DNA from: Pseudomonadota bacterium
GTDB taxonomy: Bacteria; Pseudomonadota; Gammaproteobacteria; Burkholderiales; Rhodocyclaceae
Reading direction: 5' to 3'
Assembly (NCBI GenBank): GCA_018241725.1
Contig: JAFEDI010000078.1
Span: 124,001 to 188,000, forward strand
DNA length: 64,000 nt
This document shows positions 137-11,009 of this stretch, piece after piece. Made by a program: the position numbers and the translations under genes. Within the stretch, counting starts at the first letter, position 1, and each line of letters opens with the position of its first letter. A model generated the notes under the pieces. That model searched no databases and was not told the DNA's origin. It was given only the letters and a program-made list of their open reading frames with translations.

Positions 137-394
137 TTGCGCAATATCCTGCTGTTCGTCCTGTTCCTGCTGGCTGTTTTCTATGTCCGTCGCGCACTGC
201 AGCCTGGCCCTCGACGCGAGGAGGGACGCGACTCCGTGCCGGAGCAGGGGACGAGCCAGCCCCCGGTGGGTGAGATCGAGCAGATGGTGGCCTGCGCCCA
301 TTGCGGCGTGCATGTGCCGGAGAGCGAAGGTGTGACGAGCGGCGGCCGCTTCTTTTGCTCGGAGGAACACCGCCGCCTCGGCACCCGCCCGTGA
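137..394 (+). CDS. PP0621-family small membrane-anchored protein
   Basis: An 85-residue protein starting at TTG 137, with a purine-rich GGAGG about 9 bases upstream (124-128). Residues 3-18 form one hydrophobic helix (NILLFVLFLLAVFYVR), followed by a charged linker and a C-terminal segment with two pairs of metal-ligand-like residues (CAHCGVHV and FFCSEEHR). This Cys-x2-Cys...Cys-x3-His pattern is the hallmark of PP0621-family proteins, which typically sit directly upstream of pilS in beta- and gammaproteobacteria, as here. A small inner-membrane protein with a zinc-ribbon-like cytoplasmic tail is the likely picture. Its role is unknown; linkage to pilS suggests, but does not show, a link to pilus control. 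Its stop overlaps the proposed pilS start (GTGA). Confidence 0.7.
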   Translation: MRNILLFVLFLLAVFYVRRALQPGPRREEGRDSVPEQGTSQPPVGEIEQMVACAHCGVHVPESEGVTSGGRFFCSEEHRRLGTRP

Positions 395-1974
395 GCGCCG
401 GTTCCGCTCCCCTGGCGAGCCAGTTCCAGCCTGGCGACGACCGCAGCCAGCCGCTGCGTTATCTCAACCTGTTCCGCCTGGTGCTGGCCGGGATTTTCGT
501 TGTGACGGGGCGGGCGCTGCAACTTGGCAGTGACTCCCCGACCCTGTTTTTCGGCGCCGCCTTCGCTTATCTGGCGGCGGTGCTGATCCTCGGCTTCCCG
601 GACGCCGCCCGTCTGCTCGGCATGAATCGTCTGGTGACGGTGCAGGTGATGGTGGACATCACGCTGTTGACTCTGATCATGTGGGCCAGCGGTGGCTATC
701 GCAGCGGCATGCCGATCCTGATCCTGGTGGCGCTGGCCGGTGCCGGCCTGGTCGGGCAGGGGCGCATGGTGCTGTTCTATGCTTCCTATGCGACGCTGGC
801 GGTGCTGCTCGAGAACACCTCGCGCCTGTTGTCGGACCGGCCGATGACGGATTTCTTCACCGTCGGGGTGACTTGCATCGGTTTCTTCGCCATCGCCCAG
901 GTGGCGCGCCTGCTGGCCCTGCGGGCGATCGCCAACGAGAACCTGGCTCGCCAGCGGGGGGAAGACCTGGCCAGCCAGCTACGCCTGAATCGGCAGATCA
1001 TCAAAGACATGCAGGACGGTGTGCTGGTGGTTGGCGAGGATGGCGCTGTGCGCCATTACAATCCCCAGGCCGCGGCCTTGCTCGGTCCAGCGCTGCAGGA
1101 GGGGGCAGTGCTGGCGGCCTGTGCGCCAGCACTGGCGCGGGAGCTACAGCGCGGTGGGCACAAGGATGATTCGGCACGGCGCGTCCGTGCCGAACTGACA
1201 GGCAAGATGCTGTTGCTCCGCCTGCTCCCTGCCGGGGAGGCCGGCGAGACATTGATCTACCTGGAGGATTACGACCGCACTCATCGCCAGATCCAGCAGG
1301 TCAAGCTGGCGGCACTGGGGCGCCTGACCGCCAGCATCGCCCACGAGATCCGTAATCCGCTGGCATCGGTGTATCAGGCGGCGGAACTGCTGCGCGACGA
1401 GAAGCGCAGCGACATGCAGGCCCGCCTGATCCGCATCATCGGCAACAACGCGCAGCGCATCGACCGCCTGGTCGGCGACGTGCTGGCCCTCGGCCGGCGC
1501 GACGAGGCGCTGCCGGAAGCCTTGCAGCTGCGGGGTTTCGTGGACGAGTTTCTGGAGGAGTTCGCGGTGGCGAACGCCAGCGATTCGCCGGAGATCGTGG
1601 TCAACCGGGTCGGGCCTGAACTGCAGATGGCGATGGACCGGACCCACTTGCGCCAGATTTTATGGAATCTTGTGGGTAATGCGCGCCGCCATTGCAGTGG
1701 TCAGCCGGCTGCGGTGACAATCACGGCATCGCCTTGCGATGACGGTCGCGTGGCGCTGGACGTGTCCGACGATGGCCCGGGGATTCCTGAGGAGCTGCGG
1801 ACGCAGGTCTTTGAGCCTTTTTTTACTACCCATTCGAAAGGGACCGGTCTGGGGTTGTATATCGCCCGGGAGCTGGCCGAGGCCAACGGCGCGGTGCTCG
1901 AATTGTGCCGCGACGAGCCTGGCACTTCGCCCGCCGGCGCCCATTTCCGCATCACTGGACGCGTGAAACCATGA
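391..1974 (+). CDS. pilS: Sensor histidine kinase PilS (type IV pilus regulation)
   Basis: Inner-membrane histidine kinase that partners PilR to control pilin transcription. The frame is open further upstream, but the GTG at 391 is chosen because it overlaps the previous stop (GTGA) and gives a normal 527-residue PilS. About six hydrophobic helices occupy roughly residues 25-190, then a PAS-like sensor region (about 215-300), the dimerisation H-box with His318 in SIAHEIRNPLAS, and a HATPase domain with an N-box (WNLVGNARRH), GPGIP and GTGLGLYIA. All catalytic signatures are present. The stop overlaps the pilR start (ATGA), so the two proteins are probably made in a coupled way. Identification as PilS rather than another kinase rests on architecture and on the adjacent sigma-54 regulator. 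Confidence 0.9.
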   Translation: MSAGSAPLASQFQPGDDRSQPLRYLNLFRLVLAGIFVVTGRALQLGSDSPTLFFGAAFAYLAAVLILGFPDAARLLGMNRLVTVQVMVDITLLTLIMWASGGYRSGMPILILVALAGAGLVGQGRMVLFYASYATLAVLLENTSRLLSDRPMTDFFTVGVTCIGFFAIAQVARLLALRAIANENLARQRGEDLASQLRLNRQIIKDMQDGVLVVGEDGAVRHYNPQAAALLGPALQEGAVLAACAPALARELQRGGHKDDSARRVRAELTGKMLLLRLLPAGEAGETLIYLEDYDRTHRQIQQVKLAALGRLTASIAHEIRNPLASVYQAAELLRDEKRSDMQARLIRIIGNNAQRIDRLVGDVLALGRRDEALPEALQLRGFVDEFLEEFAVANASDSPEIVVNRVGPELQMAMDRTHLRQILWNLVGNARRHCSGQPAAVTITASPCDDGRVALDVSDDGPGIPEELRTQVFEPFFTTHSKGTGLGLYIARELAEANGAVLELCRDEPGTSPAGAHFRITGRVKP

Positions 1975-3344
1975 TCCAGCCTGAAAGACGAGCCCGCTCC
2001 GGCGGGCCGGATGTCCTCATCGTCGACGATGAGGACGACATCCGCGAGTTGCTCGAACTCACCTTGTTGCGCCTCGGCTTGGTCAGCGATGGCGCTGCCA
2101 ACCTGGCGGAAGCCCGGCGCCTGCTCGGCGAGAAGCGCTATCGCCTGTGCCTCACCGACATGCGCTTGCCCGACGGCGACGGTCTGGAGCTGGTGCGCTA
2201 CATCTCGGAAAACATCCGCGATCTGCCCGTGGCGGTGATCACCGCTTTCGGCAGCATGGACAACGCGGTGACGGCGCTCAAGGCCGGTGCCTTCGACTAC
2301 CTCGCCAAACCGGTTTCCATCGACCAGCTGCGGGCCTTGGTGAAATCCGTTTTCTCGGTATCGGTCAAGGACGGTGAGGCAAGGCAGAAGGACAACTCCA
2401 GCCTGATCGGCGACTCGCCGGCGATGGTGCAGGTGCGCTCGCTGATCGAAAAACTGGCCAGGAGCCAGGCGCCGGTCTTCATCTCCGGTGAGTCCGGCAG
2501 CGGCAAGGAGCGCGCGGCGCGGATGATCCACGAACTGGGCCCCCGTGCGGCGGCGCCCTTCGTGGCGGTAAACTGCGGTGCGATCCCGGAAAACCTCATG
2601 GAGAGCGAGTTCTTCGGGGCAAAGAAGGGCGCGTTCACCGGCGCCGACACGGACCGGGAAGGTTTCTTCCAGGCCGCCCACGGCGGCACCCTGTTCCTTG
2701 ATGAGGTCGGCGATCTGCCGCTGGCGATGCAGGTCAAGCTGCTGCGGGCGATCCAGGAGAAGAAATTCCGCCGTCTCGGCGATACCGCCGAGACGGCCGT
2801 GGATGTGCGCATCCTCAGCGCCACCCACCAGAACCTGAAGGCCATGGTGGAGGCCTCGCGCTTCCGCCAGGATCTGTTCTACCGCCTCAATGTCATCGAA
2901 CTGCGCATGCCGGCGCTGCGCGAGCGCAGCGAGGATATCCCGCGTCTGGCGGAGATCCTCCTCAAACGTCTGGCCGAGGTGTCCGGCATGCCGGTAGCTT
3001 GCCTCAGCGAAGGCGCGGTAAAGGCGCTGGCGGCCTATTCCTTCCCGGGCAATGTGCGCGAGCTGGAGAACATCCTGGAGCGGGCGCTGGCCCTGTCCAG
3101 CGGGCAGATGATCGAGGCGGACGACCTCCTGCTCGATCCGGCTGACATCGGTGAGAGCAGTCCAGCTGCCGCCGCGGCTCCGGCCGGTACCGATCTGCAG
3201 GATTACCTCGATCAGGTGGAGCGTCATGCCATCGAGGAGGCACTGGAAAAATCCGGCGGCAACCGCACCGCGGCGGCCCGCTATTTGGGGGTGACCTTCC
3301 GTTCCCTGCGCTACCGCCTGGAGCGGCTGGGCATGAAGGAGTGA
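1971..3344 (+). CDS. pilR: Sigma-54-dependent response regulator PilR
   Basis: NtrC-type activator, 457 residues. The start ATG 1971 overlaps the pilS stop. Receiver domain at about residues 14-130 with the acidic pair in VLIVDDEDD and phospho-acceptor Asp63 in TDMRLPDGDG. A sigma-54 AAA+ domain follows (about 148-380) with Walker A GESGSGKER, the sigma-54 contact loop GAFTGA, Walker B GTLFLDEVGDL and an arginine-finger region. The C-terminus carries a Fis-type helix-turn-helix (GGNRTAAARYLGVTFRSLRYRL). PilR phosphorylated by PilS activates pilA from a sigma-54 promoter; no pilA is seen in this window. The stop TGA overlaps the next start (TGATG), which places the unrelated-looking transporter-kinase gene in the same transcription unit. 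Confidence 0.93.
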   Translation: MIQPERRARSGGPDVLIVDDEDDIRELLELTLLRLGLVSDGAANLAEARRLLGEKRYRLCLTDMRLPDGDGLELVRYISENIRDLPVAVITAFGSMDNAVTALKAGAFDYLAKPVSIDQLRALVKSVFSVSVKDGEARQKDNSSLIGDSPAMVQVRSLIEKLARSQAPVFISGESGSGKERAARMIHELGPRAAAPFVAVNCGAIPENLMESEFFGAKKGAFTGADTDREGFFQAAHGGTLFLDEVGDLPLAMQVKLLRAIQEKKFRRLGDTAETAVDVRILSATHQNLKAMVEASRFRQDLFYRLNVIELRMPALRERSEDIPRLAEILLKRLAEVSGMPVACLSEGAVKALAAYSFPGNVRELENILERALALSSGQMIEADDLLLDPADIGESSPAAAAAPAGTDLQDYLDQVERHAIEEALEKSGGNRTAAARYLGVTFRSLRYRLERLGMKE

Positions 3345-6300
3345 TGGACGCCGAGGCATCGACGGCCGCGGCGGAGCCGGATGCCGTCCAGCGGGTGGTC
3401 AAAGTCCGCCGCGACTACAATGCCTGGGTCGCCCGCGAAACCATTGAGGATTATGCGCTGCGCTTCACTCCGCGCAGCTTCCGGCGCTGGTCGGAATGGC
3501 GGGTAGCCAACACAGCCTTCGGCGTGGCTTCCTTCCTGGTGCTGGAGGCCGTCGGCGCCACGTTGTTGGTGGATTACGGTTTCAGCAACGCGCTGTGGGC
3601 GATCCTCGCCGCCGGGCTGATCATCTTCCTGGCTGGCTTGCCGATCAGCGTTTATGCGGCGCGCTATGGCGTGGACATGGATCTGCTGACCCGTGGCGCC
3701 GGCTTCGGCTACATCGGCTCGACGCTGACGTCGCTGGTCTACGCGTCCTTCACCTTCATTTTCTTCGCCCTCGAAGCGGCGATCATGGCCTACGCGCTGG
3801 ACCTGGCCTTCGACATCCCGCCGGCCTGGGGCTACCTGCTGTGCGCGGTAGTGGTAATTCCGCTGGTCACTCATGGGGTGACGGCGATCAGCCGCCTGCA
3901 GGCGTGGACCCAGCCCCTGTGGATCCTGATGCTGGTGGTGCCCTACGTCTTCGTCTTCACTGAACGCCCGGACGTACTGCGCGGTATCGTGTCCTATGGC
4001 GGCGAGCACGGCGCGGGGGCGGATTTCGACATGCGGGCCTTTGGCGCCGCGCTGACAGTGGGCATCGCGCTGATGACCCAGATGGGCGAACAGGCCGACT
4101 ACCTGCGCTTCATGCCGGAGAGAACGCCAGCCAATCGCTGGCGCTGGTGGGGTGGGGTGCTGGTTGGTGGGCCCGGCTGGGTGCTACTGGGTGTCGTCAA
4201 GATGCTTGGCGGGGCGCTGCTGGCCTACCTAGCGATCAGCAATTCGGTGCCGGCCGACCGAGCGGTAGACCCCAACCAGATGTACCTGGCCGCCTACGAA
4301 TACGTGTTTCCGGGCCTGCACTGGGCGGTGGCGGCAACGGCGCTGTTCGTCGTGGTGTCCCAACTCAAGATCAACGTCACCAACGCCTACGCCGGCTCGC
4401 TGGCGTGGTCGAACTTCTTCGCGCGGCTGACCCACAGCCACCCGGGGCGGGTAGTGTGGGTGGTCTTCAATACGTTGATCGCGCTGGTGCTGATGGAACT
4501 GGATGTGTTCCAGGCCCTCGGCAAGGTGCTCGGCTTGTACGCCAACGTGGCTATCTCATGGATGATGGCGGTGGTCGCTGATCTGGTCGTCAACAAGCCG
4601 CTGGGCCTGTCGCCGCCGGGCATCGAGTTCAAGCGTGCCCACTTGTACGACGTCAATCCGGTCGGTGTCGGTGCGATGGGCATCGCATCGGTGCTGTCGG
4701 TGGCAGCCTACCTGGGCGTTTTCGGGCCGGATGCGGCTGCCTTTTCGGCGCTCATCGCGCTGGTTGTTGCCTTCGTCACCGCGCCGCTGATCGCCTGGAT
4801 CACCGGCGGGCGCTACTACATCGCGCGGCGGCCGGCACCGTCCGTGGCCGGCGGAGCCCGCTGCTGTGCGATCTGCGAGCGCGAATACGAGGCTGATGAC
4901 CTGGCCCATTGCCCGGCCTACCAGGGGGATATCTGCTCCCTGTGCTGTTCGCTGGACGCCCGCTGCAATGACTTGTGCAAACCCGAAGCGCGCCTCTCGG
5001 CCCAATGGTCGGCGGCGATGCGGCGCCTGCTGCCACGCTCCGTTTGGCCTTACCTCGAAACCGGGCTCGGCCACTACCTGCTGTTGATGGGTGTCATCGC
5101 GCCAGGGCTGGCGCTGCTGATGTGGTTGCTGCACTACCACGGGCTCAGCCTGCTCGGCGCCAGCGCGCCGGAGTTCGCACCGGCCCTGCGGCTGGCTTTC
5201 CTGAAAGGTTACGCGGCGCTGTTGCTGCTGGCCGGGCTGGTGGTGTGGTGGCTGGTGTTGACTCACAAGAGCCGCCAGGTGGCCCAGGAGGAGTCGAACC
5301 GCCAGACCCACCTGCTGATGCGCGAGATCGATTCCCACCGGCGCACCGACGAACAATTGCAGAAGGCCAAGCAGGTGGCCGACCTGGCCAACCAGGCGAA
5401 GAGCCGCTATATCACCGCGATCAGCCACGAGCTGCGCACGCCATTGAACAGCATCCTCGGCTACGCGCAGATCCTCGACGGGGACGATTCGATCCCGGTG
5501 CACCGGCGCCAGGCGATCAACGTGATCCGCCGCAGCGGCGACCACCTGCTGTCGGTGATCGAAGGCACCCTGGACATTGCGCGCATCGAGGGCGGCAAGC
5601 TGACCCTGGACGTGAAACCGCTGGATTTCCGTGACTTCGTGGGGCAGATCGTCGGTATGTTCGAGTTGCAGGCGCGCAACAAGGGGCTGGAGTTCCGATT
5701 CGAGCCGAAGGGTGAGCTGCCGGCCTTCCTGCGCGCCGACGAGAAGCGCCTGCGCCAGATCCTCATCAACCTGCTGGGCAACGCGGTGAAGTTCACCGCC
5801 AGCGGCCACATCAGCCTGCGCCTCGCCTACCGCATGGAGATGGCGACCTTCGAGGTCGAGGATTCCGGGCCGGGCATCTCGGCGGCCGAGATTGAGCGCA
5901 TCTTCGAGCCCTTTTCCCAGGGCAGCTCGGCGCAGGGCGCCAGCGGGGCAGGGCTGGGCCTGACGATCAGCCGCATGTTCGCCGACGTGATGGGCGGCGA
6001 GCTGACGGTGAAGAGCGAGCCCGGCGTCGGCAGTACCTTCCGCGTGCGCCTGTTCCTGCCCCAGGTGCGCGACGAACTGGCGACGCGCCAGCTGCCGCGC
6101 CGCAACCGGCTGGGCTACCGTGGCGAGCGGCGGCGCATCCTGATCGTGGACAACGAGCGGGTGGACCGGGAGTTCCTGATCACGCTGCTGGAGCCCCTCG
6201 GCTTCGTTTTGGCCCAGGCAGCGTCCGGGCAGGAGTGCCTGAACCTGTTGCTGGAATTCCGCCCCGACCTGGTCTTCATGGACCTGGCGATGCCGGGCAT

Positions 6301-6748
6301 GGACGGCTGGGAGACGGTGCGCCGCCTCCGCGCCGGCGCCAACGCCGCGACGCCGGTGGCGATCATCTCGGCCAATGCCTACGAGCGCGGCCTGCACAGC
6401 GACGACAATGATCTGGGTATCGGTGCCGCCGATTTCATCCTCAAGCCGGTGCAGGTGAACGAACTGCTGGACTGGATCGGCCAGCGCCTGGGCCTCGAAT
6501 GGCTGGAATCCGGGGACGAACTACCCGTCGCGCCGCCCGTCGGCTGGATCGCACCGCCGGCAGCACTGCTGGAGCCTTTGGCCCACCAGGTTGAGCTCGG
6601 CTACGTGAAGGGCATCCTGGCCCGCCTGGTCGATATCGAAGCGGCCGATCCGGCCTATGCCCCCTTTGTGGCCGAAGTCCGCGAGCTGACCCGTGGCTTC
6701 CACCTCGACGCCATTCCACCGCTGCTGGAAAAAGCCCGCCATGCCTGA
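3344..6748 (+). CDS. NCS1-type transporter / hybrid histidine kinase-response regulator fusion
   Basis: A 1134-residue membrane sensor. Residues about 35-490 form a multi-helix domain of the nucleobase:cation symporter-1 (purine/cytosine permease) type. A cytoplasmic segment at residues 507-545 holds nine cysteines (CCAICEREYE... through CSLCCSLDARCNDLCKP), resembling a metal-binding module. Two further hydrophobic helices (about 570-640) precede a coiled coil, an H-box with His695 (ISHELRTPLNSILGYAQIL), a HATPase domain (LINLLGNAVKF, DSGPGIS, GAGLGLTIS) and a receiver with Asp980 in MDLAMPGMDGWE. The logic recalls CbrA-like kinases, where a solute-symporter domain is fused to a kinase. No catabolic gene lies nearby to suggest a ligand. 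ATG 3344 overlaps the pilR stop; GTG 3341 is an alternative. The cognate regulator follows with overlap. Confidence 0.85.
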   Translation: MDAEASTAAAEPDAVQRVVKVRRDYNAWVARETIEDYALRFTPRSFRRWSEWRVANTAFGVASFLVLEAVGATLLVDYGFSNALWAILAAGLIIFLAGLPISVYAARYGVDMDLLTRGAGFGYIGSTLTSLVYASFTFIFFALEAAIMAYALDLAFDIPPAWGYLLCAVVVIPLVTHGVTAISRLQAWTQPLWILMLVVPYVFVFTERPDVLRGIVSYGGEHGAGADFDMRAFGAALTVGIALMTQMGEQADYLRFMPERTPANRWRWWGGVLVGGPGWVLLGVVKMLGGALLAYLAISNSVPADRAVDPNQMYLAAYEYVFPGLHWAVAATALFVVVSQLKINVTNAYAGSLAWSNFFARLTHSHPGRVVWVVFNTLIALVLMELDVFQALGKVLGLYANVAISWMMAVVADLVVNKPLGLSPPGIEFKRAHLYDVNPVGVGAMGIASVLSVAAYLGVFGPDAAAFSALIALVVAFVTAPLIAWITGGRYYIARRPAPSVAGGARCCAICEREYEADDLAHCPAYQGDICSLCCSLDARCNDLCKPEARLSAQWSAAMRRLLPRSVWPYLETGLGHYLLLMGVIAPGLALLMWLLHYHGLSLLGASAPEFAPALRLAFLKGYAALLLLAGLVVWWLVLTHKSRQVAQEESNRQTHLLMREIDSHRRTDEQLQKAKQVADLANQAKSRYITAISHELRTPLNSILGYAQILDGDDSIPVHRRQAINVIRRSGDHLLSVIEGTLDIARIEGGKLTLDVKPLDFRDFVGQIVGMFELQARNKGLEFRFEPKGELPAFLRADEKRLRQILINLLGNAVKFTASGHISLRLAYRMEMATFEVEDSGPGISAAEIERIFEPFSQGSSAQGASGAGLGLTISRMFADVMGGELTVKSEPGVGSTFRVRLFLPQVRDELATRQLPRRNRLGYRGERRRILIVDNERVDREFLITLLEPLGFVLAQAASGQECLNLLLEFRPDLVFMDLAMPGMDGWETVRRLRAGANAATPVAIISANAYERGLHSDDNDLGIGAADFILKPVQVNELLDWIGQRLGLEWLESGDELPVAPPVGWIAPPAALLEPLAHQVELGYVKGILARLVDIEAADPAYAPFVAEVRELTRGFHLDAIPPLLEKARHA

Positions 6749-7691
6749 TTTCGACCGGCTCAATTCCGACCTCGTGCTGATCGTGGACGACATTCCGGAG
6801 AACCTCTCGGTGCTTCACGACGCCCTAGACGAATCCGGCTACACGGTGCTGGTCGCCACCAACGGCGAGACGGCACTGCAGCGGGCGCGCCAGAGCCTGC
6901 CCGACGTGATCCTGCTCGACGCGATGATGCCGGGCATGGATGGCTTCGAGGTGGCGCGGCGCTTGAAGGCCGACTTCACGACGCGCCATATCCCCATCGT
7001 CTTCATGACCGGGCTGACGGAGACCGAGCACGTGGTGGCGGCTTTTGCCGCCGGCGGTGCGGACTACGTGACCAAGCCGATCCGCCCGCAGGAGGTGCTG
7101 GCCCGCATCGCCGCCCACATGCAGAGCGCCCGGCTCATGAAGCAGGCGCGCAGTGCGCTGGACGCCTTCGGCCAGGCGACGTTGGCCATCCGCCCGGAGA
7201 GCGGTCGGGTGGTGTGGCAGACGCCGCTGGCCAGAAAGTTGATGCAGACCTATTTCGAGGGCCTGGAAGGCCTCGAGGACCAGGCGCCGCCGTCGGTGAT
7301 GGCCTGGGTACAGTCCTCCGGCCGTGCCCGTGGCGAGGGCCGGGAGTTCCCGCCGCTGTCTTTGAACCAGGGCGCGCGCCGGCTGATCTTCACGCTGCAC
7401 GACCGGACCGGCGACGACGAGTGGCTGGTGAGCCTGCGCGAGGAGTCCGACGCGGCAGTGCTCGATGCGCTGATGGGCGCCTTTCGCCTGACCAACCGCG
7501 AGGCTGAGGTGCTCTACTGGGTGATCAAGGGGAAGACAAGCCCAGACATCGGTGAGATCCTCGGTTCCAGCCCACGCACCGTCAACAAGCATCTGGAGCA
7601 CGTCTTCGCCAAGCTGGGTGTCGAGAACCGCACTGCGGCGGCGTCCGTGGCGATGGCGCGGATCCGCAGCGGCGGAGCCGGCGATGGCTAG
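6741..7691 (+). CDS. Response regulator with LuxR-type DNA-binding domain
   Basis: A 316-residue regulator. Receiver at about residues 10-130 (LVLIVDDIPEN, phospho-acceptor Asp60 in LLDAMMPGMDGFE, FMTGLTE switch region, Lys in YVTKPI). A middle region of about 100 residues follows without a clear family match. The C-terminal LuxR/FixJ helix-turn-helix (about 250-305) contains LTNREAEVLYWVIKGKTS and SPRTVNKHLEHVFAKLGVENR. ATG 6741 overlaps the 3' end of the transporter-kinase gene by 8 bases, so this is the likely output of that kinase. Its targets are unknown. Stop at 7689-7691 lies 9 bases from the convergent GGDEF/EAL gene, with no terminator hairpin visible between them. Confidence 0.85.
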   Translation: MPDFDRLNSDLVLIVDDIPENLSVLHDALDESGYTVLVATNGETALQRARQSLPDVILLDAMMPGMDGFEVARRLKADFTTRHIPIVFMTGLTETEHVVAAFAAGGADYVTKPIRPQEVLARIAAHMQSARLMKQARSALDAFGQATLAIRPESGRVVWQTPLARKLMQTYFEGLEGLEDQAPPSVMAWVQSSGRARGEGREFPPLSLNQGARRLIFTLHDRTGDDEWLVSLREESDAAVLDALMGAFRLTNREAEVLYWVIKGKTSPDIGEILGSSPRTVNKHLEHVFAKLGVENRTAAASVAMARIRSGGAGDG

Positions 7692-7700
7692 TGCGGGCGT

Positions 7701-10700
7701 TCAGGCCGGGACCGCGCCGCGTTCGGCCTCGCTGCGCAGCAGGCGGGTGATGTTCGCGGCGGGTTGCGGTCGGGCGAGCAGGTAGCCCTGCATCACGCGG
7801 CACTGGCGTTCCAGCAGGAAGTCGCACTGGGCTTCGGTCTCCACGCCTTCGGCGACCACGTCGAGGCCCAGATCACGGGCGATCGACAGCGTGGCAGTAG
7901 CGATCGCGGCGTCTTCCGGGTCGCCGGGCAGGTCCTGCACGAAAGAGCGATCGATCTTCAAGCGGGTCAGCGGCAGGCGCTTGAGATAGGACAGGCTTGA
8001 ATAACCGGTGCCGAAGTCGTCCAGCGCGAGGCCTACGCCCAGCTTGCTCAGCGTGGCGAACTGCTGCTCGGTTTCGCTGCTGGGCTGCATCAGCGCGCTT
8101 TCCGTGATTTCCAGCTCGATACTGCAGGGCGGAATGTTCCAGTGGGTCAGAGCATGGCGGAGCCGGTCGATGAAGCCCGGGCGCCGGAATTGCAGGGCTG
8201 AGATGTTGATGGCAACGGTCAGCTCCGGCAGGCCGGCATCCCGCCAGGCGGCCTGCTGGCGGGCGGCCTCGTGCAGGACCCAGTCACTGATGGCGTGGAT
8301 CAGGCCGGTTTCCTCGGCGAGGGGAATGAACTCGCCCGGCAGGACCCGGCCGCGATCGGGGCTGTCCCAGCGCACCAGGGCTTCGACGCCTATCAGCCGT
8401 TTGCCGGGCATTTCCCACTGGGGCTGGTATTCGAGGACCAGTTCGTTGCGTTCAATGGCGCGTCGCAGTGCGTTCTCCAGCATCAGGCGCGCGTAGGCAC
8501 GGCTGTTCATCTCGGACGTGAAGAAGCGGAAATCGTTGCGTCCCTCGTTCTTGGCGTCGTACATGGCGGTGTCGGCATGCTTCAGCAGCACGTCCACATG
8601 GGTGCCGTTGTCGGGCGCCAGGGCGATGCCGATGCTGGTGCTGACGGTGAGATCCTGGCCATCGATGTCGAAGGGTGTGAGCAGGCTGTCGATCAGCTTG
8701 CGGGCGACGGTGGCGGCATCTTCGGAGCGGGACAGCTGGGGGAGCAGCACGACGAATTCGTCGCCGCCCAGACGGGCCAGCACATCTTCATCGCGCAGGC
8801 ATTGGGACAGACGTTTGGCGGCGGCCGACAGCAGGCGGTCGCCGGTCGGATGGCCCAGGGTGTCGTTCACCTTCTTGAAATTGTCAAGATCGAGGAATAG
8901 CACGCCGACGCAGGTATGGTTGCGCCGGGCGAAAGCGAGTGCCTGCTCGGCGCGGTTGATCCACAGGCTGCGGTTGGGCAGGCCGGTCAGGGTGTCGTAG
9001 TGGGCCAGGTAATGGATGTGAGCTTCCGCGGCCCGGCTTTCCGAAACGTCCTGCACCGTGCCGCGCAGGGTACGCATGCCATTGCTGGCCGGCGTGGCTT
9101 CGATGCTGACATGCACGATGCGGCCGTCCCTGCCCGGGCTCGTCAGGCGCATGTCCAGATTTGCGCCGGACTGCCCTTGCTGAACGCTGTCGAGGGTGTT
9201 CTGCAACCGCTGACGGTCCTCCGGGTGGATGGCTGCCAGGAAGTTCTGCAGGGTACTTGGGGTGTCGGTCGGTACGCCGAGAATGCGGTACAGCTCGGCA
9301 GACCAGTGGTTGCGGTCGTTCGCCGGGTCGGCTTCCCAGCTGCCGAGGTGGGCGATCCGCTCGGCGTGGGTGAGCATGGCCTGTTGGTCGATCAGGCGAC
9401 GGCCCGCGTCGGCCAGTTCGATGGTGCGCCGATCCACCAGCTCTTCAATGCGGCGGGCGCGGCCCGTGGTGGCAAGCAGGAAGGCGCCCAGTGTGCCGAT
9501 GCTCAACAGGCCGATGGCAAGAAGGGTCCAGGCTTCCCAGCCCCGCTGGCGGAAGGAGTAACTCGGATCGGTGCTGAGGGTCAGAGTCCAGGACTGACCG
9601 CCGAACTCTATGGGCTCTATCCAGGGGGTCAGTCCGTCGGTGCCGACAGCGCCCGCCAGCGGACAGGACTGGTGGCCGGCAAGATGGTTGCCGACCGTCT
9701 GGCCGCCTACATTTTCGGTCAAGCAGTACTGGATGCCGGGGATCTCATGGCCGCGCAGGGCACTGACCACGCTTTCCTCTACGCGCAGGGCGACGAAGAC
9801 GAAACCGTCTAGACTGGCCGGCGGAGGCAGGCCGCGGTGATTGGCCCGTTGGTACAGCACGACGCCGGCCATGCCCTGCGTCTCCTGGGTGAGCTCGAAG
9901 GCCCTGGAGGCCGCAGCCTGGCCGTCGGCACTGGTGCGCTGCATGGCTTCCGCGCTGGCCGGAATCGTCGATACATCGACACCGAAGACGCGCCGGTTGG
10001 ACTCCAGCGGGGCGACAAAACGGACGGGGTAGTACTCGGTGCGGTCACGGGCCGGGTACAGCTCGCTGGCAGCTCCACGATCGAGTATGTGGAAGTCGCC
10101 AACGCCCGTTGCACTGCGTACCGCATGTTCGAAAGCTGTGCGTTGGGAGCCCTGAACGCGGGGAATCCAGCCGATGGCCTGGATGCCGCCGAGGCGGGTC
10201 AGCCATGAGGCGGCGAACTGCTGGAAGCCCTCGTCATCCAGATCCGGTGCGGCGACCATCACCCGTTCGGCGGATTGCAGGACCGACTGATAGTTGGCCA
10301 GGCGGCTGGTCAGCAGATTGGAGATGAAGTGGGCGTCACTTTCGAAACGGGATTGAAGGCGCTGACGCTCCCATTGGCCGATCTGGATTTCCAGACCGAC
10401 CAGCAGGATCAGTGCGGTGCCCATGGGAATCACGAGACCCAGGCGGCGAGGTGCCCAATCCCGCTGTGGCTGCCCCCAGAAGGCGAAGATCAGCGGGCAT
10501 GCGATAAGAATGCCGATGGCGTCGCCGGCCCACCAGTTCCACCAACTGAAGACGGCATCGTGTTTCGGGACCGAGCCGAGCAGGGACAGGGCTCCGACGC
10601 CGATGCTGGCACTGATCAGGCAACTGAGCGGGGCGGCGACGAAGAAGAAGCGCAGGATGGAGCCGGCGCTGTCGAGAGAATTGGGAAAGCCGACCCAGCG

Positions 10701-11009
10701 CCGGATCAGCGCCACGCCGGCGAAGGCCTGTAGAACTGCGCCGGTGCCGACGCACAGGGGCATGATCCAGTTGATCCCCCCGAGTCCCGCACGTGTGACC
10801 GCCTCCACATTGGTGATGGCTGCACCGAGAAAGATGGCTGGCCAGATGCGTCGGCCCTTGATGAGCATGGCGGCCAGGGCGATCCCTGCGGGGGGGTAGA
10901 GCGGTGCGACGTAGCCGGGCGGGATCGCTATATGGAGTGCGATCAGGCCGCACAGCGCATAGGCGACGGTAATTCCGGCGAGTTGCTGTATCCGCTGGGA
11001 GAAAGGCAT
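7701..11009 (-). CDS. MASE1-CHASE-PAS-GGDEF-EAL cyclic-di-GMP turnover protein
   Basis: A 1102-residue inner-membrane protein. An N-terminal block of about eight helices (1-210) looks like a MASE1 sensor. It is followed by a periplasmic CHASE-type domain (about 215-470), another helix near 493-515, a PAS domain with PAC segment (about 540-650), a diguanylate cyclase domain with intact GGDEF at 748-752, and an EAL phosphodiesterase domain with Glu876 in GVEALVRWD plus the conserved LDDFGTGYSSL and EGVET motifs. Both active sites look intact, so synthesis, hydrolysis or switching between them is possible. Adjacent exopolysaccharide and pilus genes are plausible physiological targets of c-di-GMP, but there is no direct link. 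It is transcribed alone, convergent with the LuxR regulator and divergent from modD. Confidence 0.9.
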   Translation of the reverse strand: MPFSQRIQQLAGITVAYALCGLIALHIAIPPGYVAPLYPPAGIALAAMLIKGRRIWPAIFLGAAITNVEAVTRAGLGGINWIMPLCVGTGAVLQAFAGVALIRRWVGFPNSLDSAGSILRFFFVAAPLSCLISASIGVGALSLLGSVPKHDAVFSWWNWWAGDAIGILIACPLIFAFWGQPQRDWAPRRLGLVIPMGTALILLVGLEIQIGQWERQRLQSRFESDAHFISNLLTSRLANYQSVLQSAERVMVAAPDLDDEGFQQFAASWLTRLGGIQAIGWIPRVQGSQRTAFEHAVRSATGVGDFHILDRGAASELYPARDRTEYYPVRFVAPLESNRRVFGVDVSTIPASAEAMQRTSADGQAAASRAFELTQETQGMAGVVLYQRANHRGLPPPASLDGFVFVALRVEESVVSALRGHEIPGIQYCLTENVGGQTVGNHLAGHQSCPLAGAVGTDGLTPWIEPIEFGGQSWTLTLSTDPSYSFRQRGWEAWTLLAIGLLSIGTLGAFLLATTGRARRIEELVDRRTIELADAGRRLIDQQAMLTHAERIAHLGSWEADPANDRNHWSAELYRILGVPTDTPSTLQNFLAAIHPEDRQRLQNTLDSVQQGQSGANLDMRLTSPGRDGRIVHVSIEATPASNGMRTLRGTVQDVSESRAAEAHIHYLAHYDTLTGLPNRSLWINRAEQALAFARRNHTCVGVLFLDLDNFKKVNDTLGHPTGDRLLSAAAKRLSQCLRDEDVLARLGGDEFVVLLPQLSRSEDAATVARKLIDSLLTPFDIDGQDLTVSTSIGIALAPDNGTHVDVLLKHADTAMYDAKNEGRNDFRFFTSEMNSRAYARLMLENALRRAIERNELVLEYQPQWEMPGKRLIGVEALVRWDSPDRGRVLPGEFIPLAEETGLIHAISDWVLHEAARQQAAWRDAGLPELTVAINISALQFRRPGFIDRLRHALTHWNIPPCSIELEITESALMQPSSETEQQFATLSKLGVGLALDDFGTGYSSLSYLKRLPLTRLKIDRSFVQDLPGDPEDAAIATATLSIARDLGLDVVAEGVETEAQCDFLLERQCRVMQGYLLARPQPAANITRLLRSEAERGAVPA

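Follow-up and report, generated by a model that had tools for sequence, protein, structure and literature searches.

Receptors in which a whole transporter of the LeuT fold is joined to a histidine kinase and acts together with a partner regulator are described for CbrA and CrbS, with CbrB and CrbR as partners (PMC13022988; PMC5715377; PMC9100948). Transporter-kinase fusions as such are already known from CbrA (PMC13022988) and CrbS, the latter being reported as a hybrid kinase (PMC5715377; PMC9100948). Both combine an SLC5 transporter with a STAC domain and are connected with histidine, acetate or pyruvate. A comparable arrangement, made of other parts, is found in a stretch of 64,000 nucleotides (here called the window; all positions refer to it) from a bacterium of the Rhodocyclaceae, order Burkholderiales (assembly GCA_018241725.1, contig JAFEDI010000078.1, positions 124,001 to 188,000). 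Here one gene (3344-6748, plus strand) encodes a permease assigned to the nucleobase:cation symporter-1 (NCS1) type, fused to a hybrid histidine kinase. In contrast to CbrA and CrbS, its transporter domain is followed by a domain with eight cysteines and two helices, and the genes linked to it in related bacteria concern urea and amides. The comparisons presented here suggest that the protein is quite probably a receptor for urea, in its cousins for a short-chain amide, which works like CbrA and CrbS while standing outside the SLC5/STAC family.

The fusion gene is a single open reading frame that starts with ATG, is free of internal stops and codes for 1134 amino acids. Three Pfam domains are found in the protein, all above their cut-offs: HisKA (residues 685-751, positions 5396-5596), HATPase_c (residues 799-905, 5738-6058) and a Response_reg receiver (residues 932-1043, 6137-6472); residues 1-684 have no Pfam match at all. 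The kinase motifs are intact and comprise His695 (codon 5426-5428), an N box at 809, G boxes at 840 and 868, Asp980 (codon 6281-6283) and the receiver lysine Lys1034, so that the protein is a hybrid histidine kinase. The adjoining gene (6741-7691, plus strand) overlaps the end of the kinase gene by 8 bases and encodes a LuxR-type response regulator with the Pfam domains Response_reg and GerE; a match to this regulator is present in all 49 fully flanked named fusion loci. An initial annotation of the window had described a permease with a complete kinase and receiver in one polypeptide, His695 and Asp980 included, an overlapping LuxR regulator of its own and a likeness to CbrA-type transporter-kinases; all this holds, the parts being laid out as in CbrA and CrbS.

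The fusion is not a chance artefact, because 49 of 300 genomes in a sample of the order have the same architecture (53 with a match, less the weak matches of G027, G156 and G223 and the unfused protein of G259). It is also present elsewhere in the phylum, where anything scoring worse than E 1e-100 was left out, including the fragment G523. The reading frames range from about 890 to 1700 residues; those of G277 and G164 are truncated by the end of the contig, G164 with only the part behind the permease. A shorter version of 893 amino acids (L165:4653-10844) is a kinase without a receiver of its own; it adjoins a receiver-kinase protein and lies close to a formamidase gene. At the base of the tree two fusions of about 1400 residues (L134:7623-11813 and L135:8016-12263) stand without a linked urtA in genomes without a urease match.

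The initial annotation had also assigned the N-terminal domain (residues 15-490, positions 3386-4813) to the NCS1 family. This stands as far as fold and profile comparison are concerned and fails for the Pfam NCS1 profile PF02133, which none of the 39 members of the fusion alignment matches. Searches of the PDB with a profile of the N-terminal alignment and then with the single sequence gave nothing useful, and for this reason a fold search was needed. With an AlphaFold2 model of the domain (predicted local distance difference test, pLDDT, 81; predicted template modelling score, pTM, 0.85), Foldseek placed CodB at ranks 1 and 2 and Mhp1 at ranks 3-5 (E 3e-11 to 1e-7, TM-scores 0.62-0.72); Nramp followed close behind at 2e-7, then SiaT, SGLT and DUR3. 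Alignment with hhalign to an NCS1-like profile of 8 sequences, which included CodB and a PF02133 protein of the same genome and six of which the query itself had initially picked up as weakly related, gave a probability of 99.9%; the controls, one reversed and five column-shuffled, reached 0.1-0.5%. A bridge is provided by an unfused relative, L152, which is 28% identical over residues 31-497 (E 1e-30) and passes the PF02133 cut-off. Judged from predicted fold and from descent, the domain is of the NCS1 type and forms a divergent branch. Membership in SLC5/STAC was considered as well and rejected: Pfam gave no SSS match and the fold search ranks NCS1 above SSS. The Pfam scan of the fusion likewise gave no STAC match, the presence of a STAC model in Pfam being unchecked; the cysteine domain and the two helices occupy that place.

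The fusion shares with CodB and Mhp1 the predicted fold and the profile match. It differs from them in its low identity (16-18% in the fold search), the missing Pfam match, the absence of the stacking aromatic residue from its aligned place in transmembrane helix (TM) 6, a lysine at or near the Na2 threonines, the cysteine domain at the C-terminal end and the attached kinase. In CodB an aromatic residue of TM6 is reported to stack on the base (PMC9379551). For the aromatic pair Trp108/Phe204 of CodB, Phe140 of the fusion aligns with Trp108 and none of 11 fusion rows has an aromatic residue at Phe204, in an alignment that is uncertain at 16% identity; some relatives (e.g. L025, L026, L029) have a phenylalanine about three residues further on, near the TM6 break. 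The invariant Lys342 falls at or beside the Na2 threonines of TM8, where MAFFT placed a gap.

Behind the permease, residues 508-545 (4865-4978) form a small domain whose eight cysteines are kept in all 134 distinct fusion sequences and which is perhaps metal-binding. Two extra membrane helices follow, at residues 574-604 (5063-5155; hydropathy peak 578-596) and 609-698 (5168-5437; hydropathy peak 622-640). In a model of residues 479-700 the cysteine domain shows short strands, and the second helix runs unbroken into the His695 region and is predicted to be continuous with the dimerisation helix of the kinase. The cysteine domain and helices take the place of STAC in CbrA. This linker has no Pfam match and no significant fold match in the PDB (best E 1.5). 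No convincing case of the cysteine domain in another architecture was found among 200 genomes, and among the matches listed for plasmid records only fusions and unfused permeases carry it.

The two best homologues of the fusion, 95-96% identical, come from Zoogloea sp. LCSB751 and a metagenome-assembled genome, which places the host close to Zoogloea on protein identity. Taking the order and phylum samples together (96 fusion loci in 91 genomes), at least 83 loci have urtA or ureC within 20 kb of the fusion, with urtA at no fewer than 79 and ureC at a minimum of 36; a divergent urtA at a distance of at most 1.5 kb was found in 50 of the 96. A strong match to the urease alpha subunit occurs in 47 of the 49 fusion genomes of the order sample against 75 of the 251 others, uncorrected for kinship. 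In representative loci UrtA, B, C, D and E, the formamidase FmdA and an aliphatic amidase exceed their NCBIfam cut-offs. A survey that included 35 hand-chosen loci showed ureC at 33 of 49 fully flanked named loci of the closest relatives and formamidase or amidase at none of these; more distant fusions face a UrtA-like operon, often with formamidase or amidase. Of five genomes with two copies, four (G204, G264, G651, G452) combine a fusion at most 4 kb from ureC with a second one divergent from a UrtA-like gene; in the fifth (G388) one copy faces a UrtA-like operon and the other is unlinked. Among the matches listed, 13 loci have neither urtA nor ureC within 20 kb (G000, G111, G122, G205, G047, G091, G061, G068, G164, G406, G388:C3, G489:C2, G513); in G489 a formamidase gene is close to the fusion.

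On plasmids the family is frequent in Klebsiella, which accounts for 342 of 535 records matching a query of permease and linker. One Klebsiella plasmid (L193, NZ_OM489432.1) carries urtABCDE and formamidase divergent from the fusion. Where copies of the fusion are annotated, they are labelled 'ATP-binding protein', 'response regulator', ArcB or hybrid kinase.

Relatives of the permease domain without a kinase were taken from records of a plasmid collection, two of which carried no annotation. They have 528-575 residues, are annotated as 'allantoin permease', 'cytosine permease' or hypothetical, and form one group in the tree (support 96/98). In Acinetobacter the unfused permease, 44% identical to the fusion over residues 30-538, is the first gene of the urease cluster, and in Klebsiella it directly follows ureG on a record that also holds chromosomal-type genes. 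It faces fmdA in Moraxella, precedes an aliphatic amidase gene in Arthrobacter, lies near fmdA in Tsukamurella and occurs in Methylovirgula together with a fusion, the fusion's regulator, fmdA and an amidase gene. Next to L152 lie genes for a carbon-nitrogen hydrolase, a UrtA/AmiC-type periplasmic-binding protein and an AmiR/ANTAR regulator. Genes named 'cytosine permease' or 'allantoin permease' in urease clusters (L206:7956-9563, L194:5663-7270) may be misnamed urea permeases. In a record of Acinetobacter baumannii (L205:3379-9605) a fusion and an unfused relative stand back to back.

The unfused permeases lack the kinase and share core residues with the fusion. This comparison used 46 representatives, chosen from 159 fusion rows so as to share less than 80% identity. 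Seven residues of TM3, TM6 and TM8 (Glu144, Gln246, Glu249, Gln250, Lys342, Asn344 and Asn347) are identical in all 12 unfused rows (11 distinct proteins) and all 46 fusion rows. In TM1, Glu68 is present in 46 of 46 fusion representatives versus Phe or Gln in the unfused proteins, and Asp67 of the unfused rows is replaced in the fusions. The cysteine tail of the unfused relatives is often a CxxC...CxxC ribbon; it holds all eight cysteines in Methylovirgula only and is reduced in Arthrobacter and Tsukamurella.

A further tie to urea uptake is an inverted repeat, TACGTCAnnTGACGTA, between the permease gene and a divergent urtA. It is found with at most two mismatches in 26 and with at most three in 30 of 40 distinct intergenic regions (39 from fusions and one from an unfused locus, L208), for which base shuffling predicts 0.05 and about 0.2 regions, respectively. 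Where urtA is not divergent from the fusion, the repeat with up to three mismatches and the core TACG-N8-CGTA were found in all 21 further loci (L076 and L099 counted once each; matches of at most 60% identity or below 150 residues left out), against a figure of 3.8% for 500-bp pieces drawn at random from these loci. The core precedes urtA in none of 30 genomes which have urtA and no fusion (the 30 best-scoring urtA loci, 52 of 74 genomes being over the cut-off). The fusion of the host genome stands alone; contig C6 of this genome carries a urtABCDE-ureDABCEFG cluster, and TACGTCAGATTGCGTA is found 85 bp ahead of the start codon (ATG) of its urtA. This is one of only 6 sites with no more than two mismatches in 5.93 Mb; the other five, for which nothing is claimed, are on C4, C53, C62, C116 and C145. 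For close relatives the urease-operon promoter was considered as main target and rejected: of 52 stretches between this operon and the fusion, 12 have the repeat (at most three mismatches) and none has the core.

Linkage to urea and amide genes is observed, as is a common promoter site that accompanies the fusion; exceptions are G047, G061, G068 and 13 loci of a second set of urtA genes treated below. As a mechanism we propose that a whole permease of a urea/short-chain-amide subfamily of NCS1 has been fused by way of the eight-cysteine domain and a two-helix hairpin to the hybrid kinase. The hairpin would shift when the permease domain binds its ligand or cycles; its second helix is predicted to continue into the His695 helix, and the conformational change passing through the cysteine domain and this helix would alter the flow of phosphate. 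Phosphate would reach the adjoining LuxR-type regulator through the receiver or directly, and the regulator would bind TACGTCAnnTGACGTA-like repeats upstream of urtA and switch urea uptake on; where urt and ure form one cluster, urease would perhaps be switched on too. For the Zoogloea-like host, urea is the most probable ligand, and the regulator would most probably act on the urtABCDE-ureDABCEFG cluster of the other contig. In the distant branch the same system probably serves the UrtA-like/formamidase/amidase operon, with formamide or acetamide as ligand.

Several observations weigh against a urea receptor of this kind. To our knowledge, urea has not been reported as a substrate of an NCS1 protein, and nothing among the papers listed by a literature search points to it. 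The loci surveyed come from related bacteria, mostly Burkholderiales; in G061 and G068, whose fusions branch deepest in the tree, neither a urease match nor a linked urtA was found, and one Streptomyces and one other Arthrobacter record of the unfused permease show no urea or amide neighbour. Regarding the repeat, seven of the 40 divergent regions have four mismatches (including the unfused L208) and three have five or six. In a second, hand-chosen set of 20 main urtA genes of fusion-bearing genomes (one of them, L255, with only 341 bases upstream) the core is present at only 7. In ten of the 13 misses a UrtA-like gene of its own lies opposite the fusion at no more than 1.5 kb; G047, with an unlinked fusion and no repeat at urtA, clearly departs from the pattern, and G048 and G164 can be assigned neither way. 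The repeat is not enriched in the genome as a whole, with 47 sites at up to three mismatches against 145 for the reversed pattern, and a different regulator, one that accompanies the fusion, could be the one that uses it. In close relatives the repeat is mostly absent between the urease operon and the fusion, so that control of urease stays a conjecture.

Three other explanations have to be weighed. According to the first, which is a sub-case of the urea receptor and does not exclude it, the protein combines transport with sensing and brings in an appreciable part of the urea or amide by itself. The SLC5 domain of CbrA is reported to move histidine (PMC13022988), and the unfused relatives look like transporters; against retained transport stand the apparent target, which is a dedicated ATP-binding cassette (ABC) transporter, the position of Lys342 at or next to the Na2 site and the divergence of TM1 from the unfused group. 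Such a dual role is possible and rather doubtful. The second explanation regards the permease domain as a ligand-blind anchor or as a sensor of nitrogen status acting through a partner (UrtA, UreJ or ammonium), with urea and amides unbound. The changes of TM1 specific to the fusions (Glu68 in all 46, Asp67 replaced) could mean that transport or binding was lost, yet the seven residues of TM3, TM6 and TM8 that are identical in all unfused and fusion rows are what a kept recognition of the ligand would lead one to expect, so we consider it unlikely. The third and least probable, a purine, pyrimidine, allantoin or hydantoin sensor as the initial annotation had proposed, linked to urea genes since urea arises from allantoate breakdown and is an end product of purine and ureide degradation, can appeal to the closeness of the fold to CodB and Mhp1, to hydantoinase/oxoprolinase genes about 2 kb from the regulator in one Shinella locus and to the phenylalanine near the TM6 break in some relatives, but it is disfavoured by the stacking aromatic missing from its aligned place in the 11 fusion rows, the window's protein included, by neighbours across genomes, surveyed without a search aimed at purine and ureide enzymes, where most homologues lie near a transporter of known ligand (UrtABCDE) or urease and some near formamidase and aliphatic amidase, which is largely the outcome that the initial annotation itself had named as fatal to a nucleobase ligand, by the unfused relatives inside urease clusters and by the repeat that ties the system to urtA.

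The related fmdCABDEF operon of Methylophilus is reported in a review to be induced by formamide and urea, and a fused sensor is not mentioned in the passages on it (PMC10781810). In AmiC/AmiR a small amide likewise controls an aliphatic amidase, although by a binding protein and an RNA antiterminator and not by a two-component system (PMC13209695). For Ectopseudomonas guguanensis G3 a hybrid kinase and a LuxR-family regulator are described beside a second urtABCDE operon in a paper of 2026 whose available text neither recognises a transporter domain nor proposes a function; the likeness is one of description only (PMC13296017). Among the matches listed in a literature search, seen as titles and beginnings of abstracts with subscription papers mostly outside, no NCS1-kinase fusion or comparable two-component sensor of urea or amides was found.

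On these comparisons the balance tips slightly towards the view that bacteria evolved a transporter-kinase receptor a second time and separately. A so far unrecognised NCS1 subfamily for urea and short-chain amides would be the source of transporters inside clusters for urease and amidase as well as of a widespread receptor kinase, in which a putative metal site of the eight-cysteine domain may add a metal or redox signal before the uptake and use of urea are switched on; urease itself needs nickel. The fusion family is found widely among Proteobacteria, with many Klebsiella plasmids among its carriers, and yet its annotated copies go under the labels given above. If the proposal is correct, a protein that probably senses urea and small amides directly would be named, the predicted 16-bp operator would make its regulon testable, and a sensor and a transporter from one NCS1 subfamily would be at hand, alongside the SLC5-based CbrA and CrbS, for asking how a permease becomes a receptor.

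Upstream of the fusion, positions 301-3344 (plus strand) hold genes for a PilS-like kinase and a sigma-54 response regulator, as judged from open reading frames and Pfam; from its position we take the latter to be PilR-like. Its stop codon and the ATG of the fusion share base 3344 (TGATG), an overlap of one base. The same pair stands upstream of the fusion in the relatives L033, L034, L035 and L039, and with this gene order expression of the fusion may follow the upstream pair. No catabolic genes were conspicuous by eye in the first 16 kb of the window, a search of the whole window not having been made. Downstream, positions 7701-11009 encode a large protein which by eye resembles GGDEF/EAL proteins and is convergent to the regulator gene, likewise in several Zoogloea relatives.

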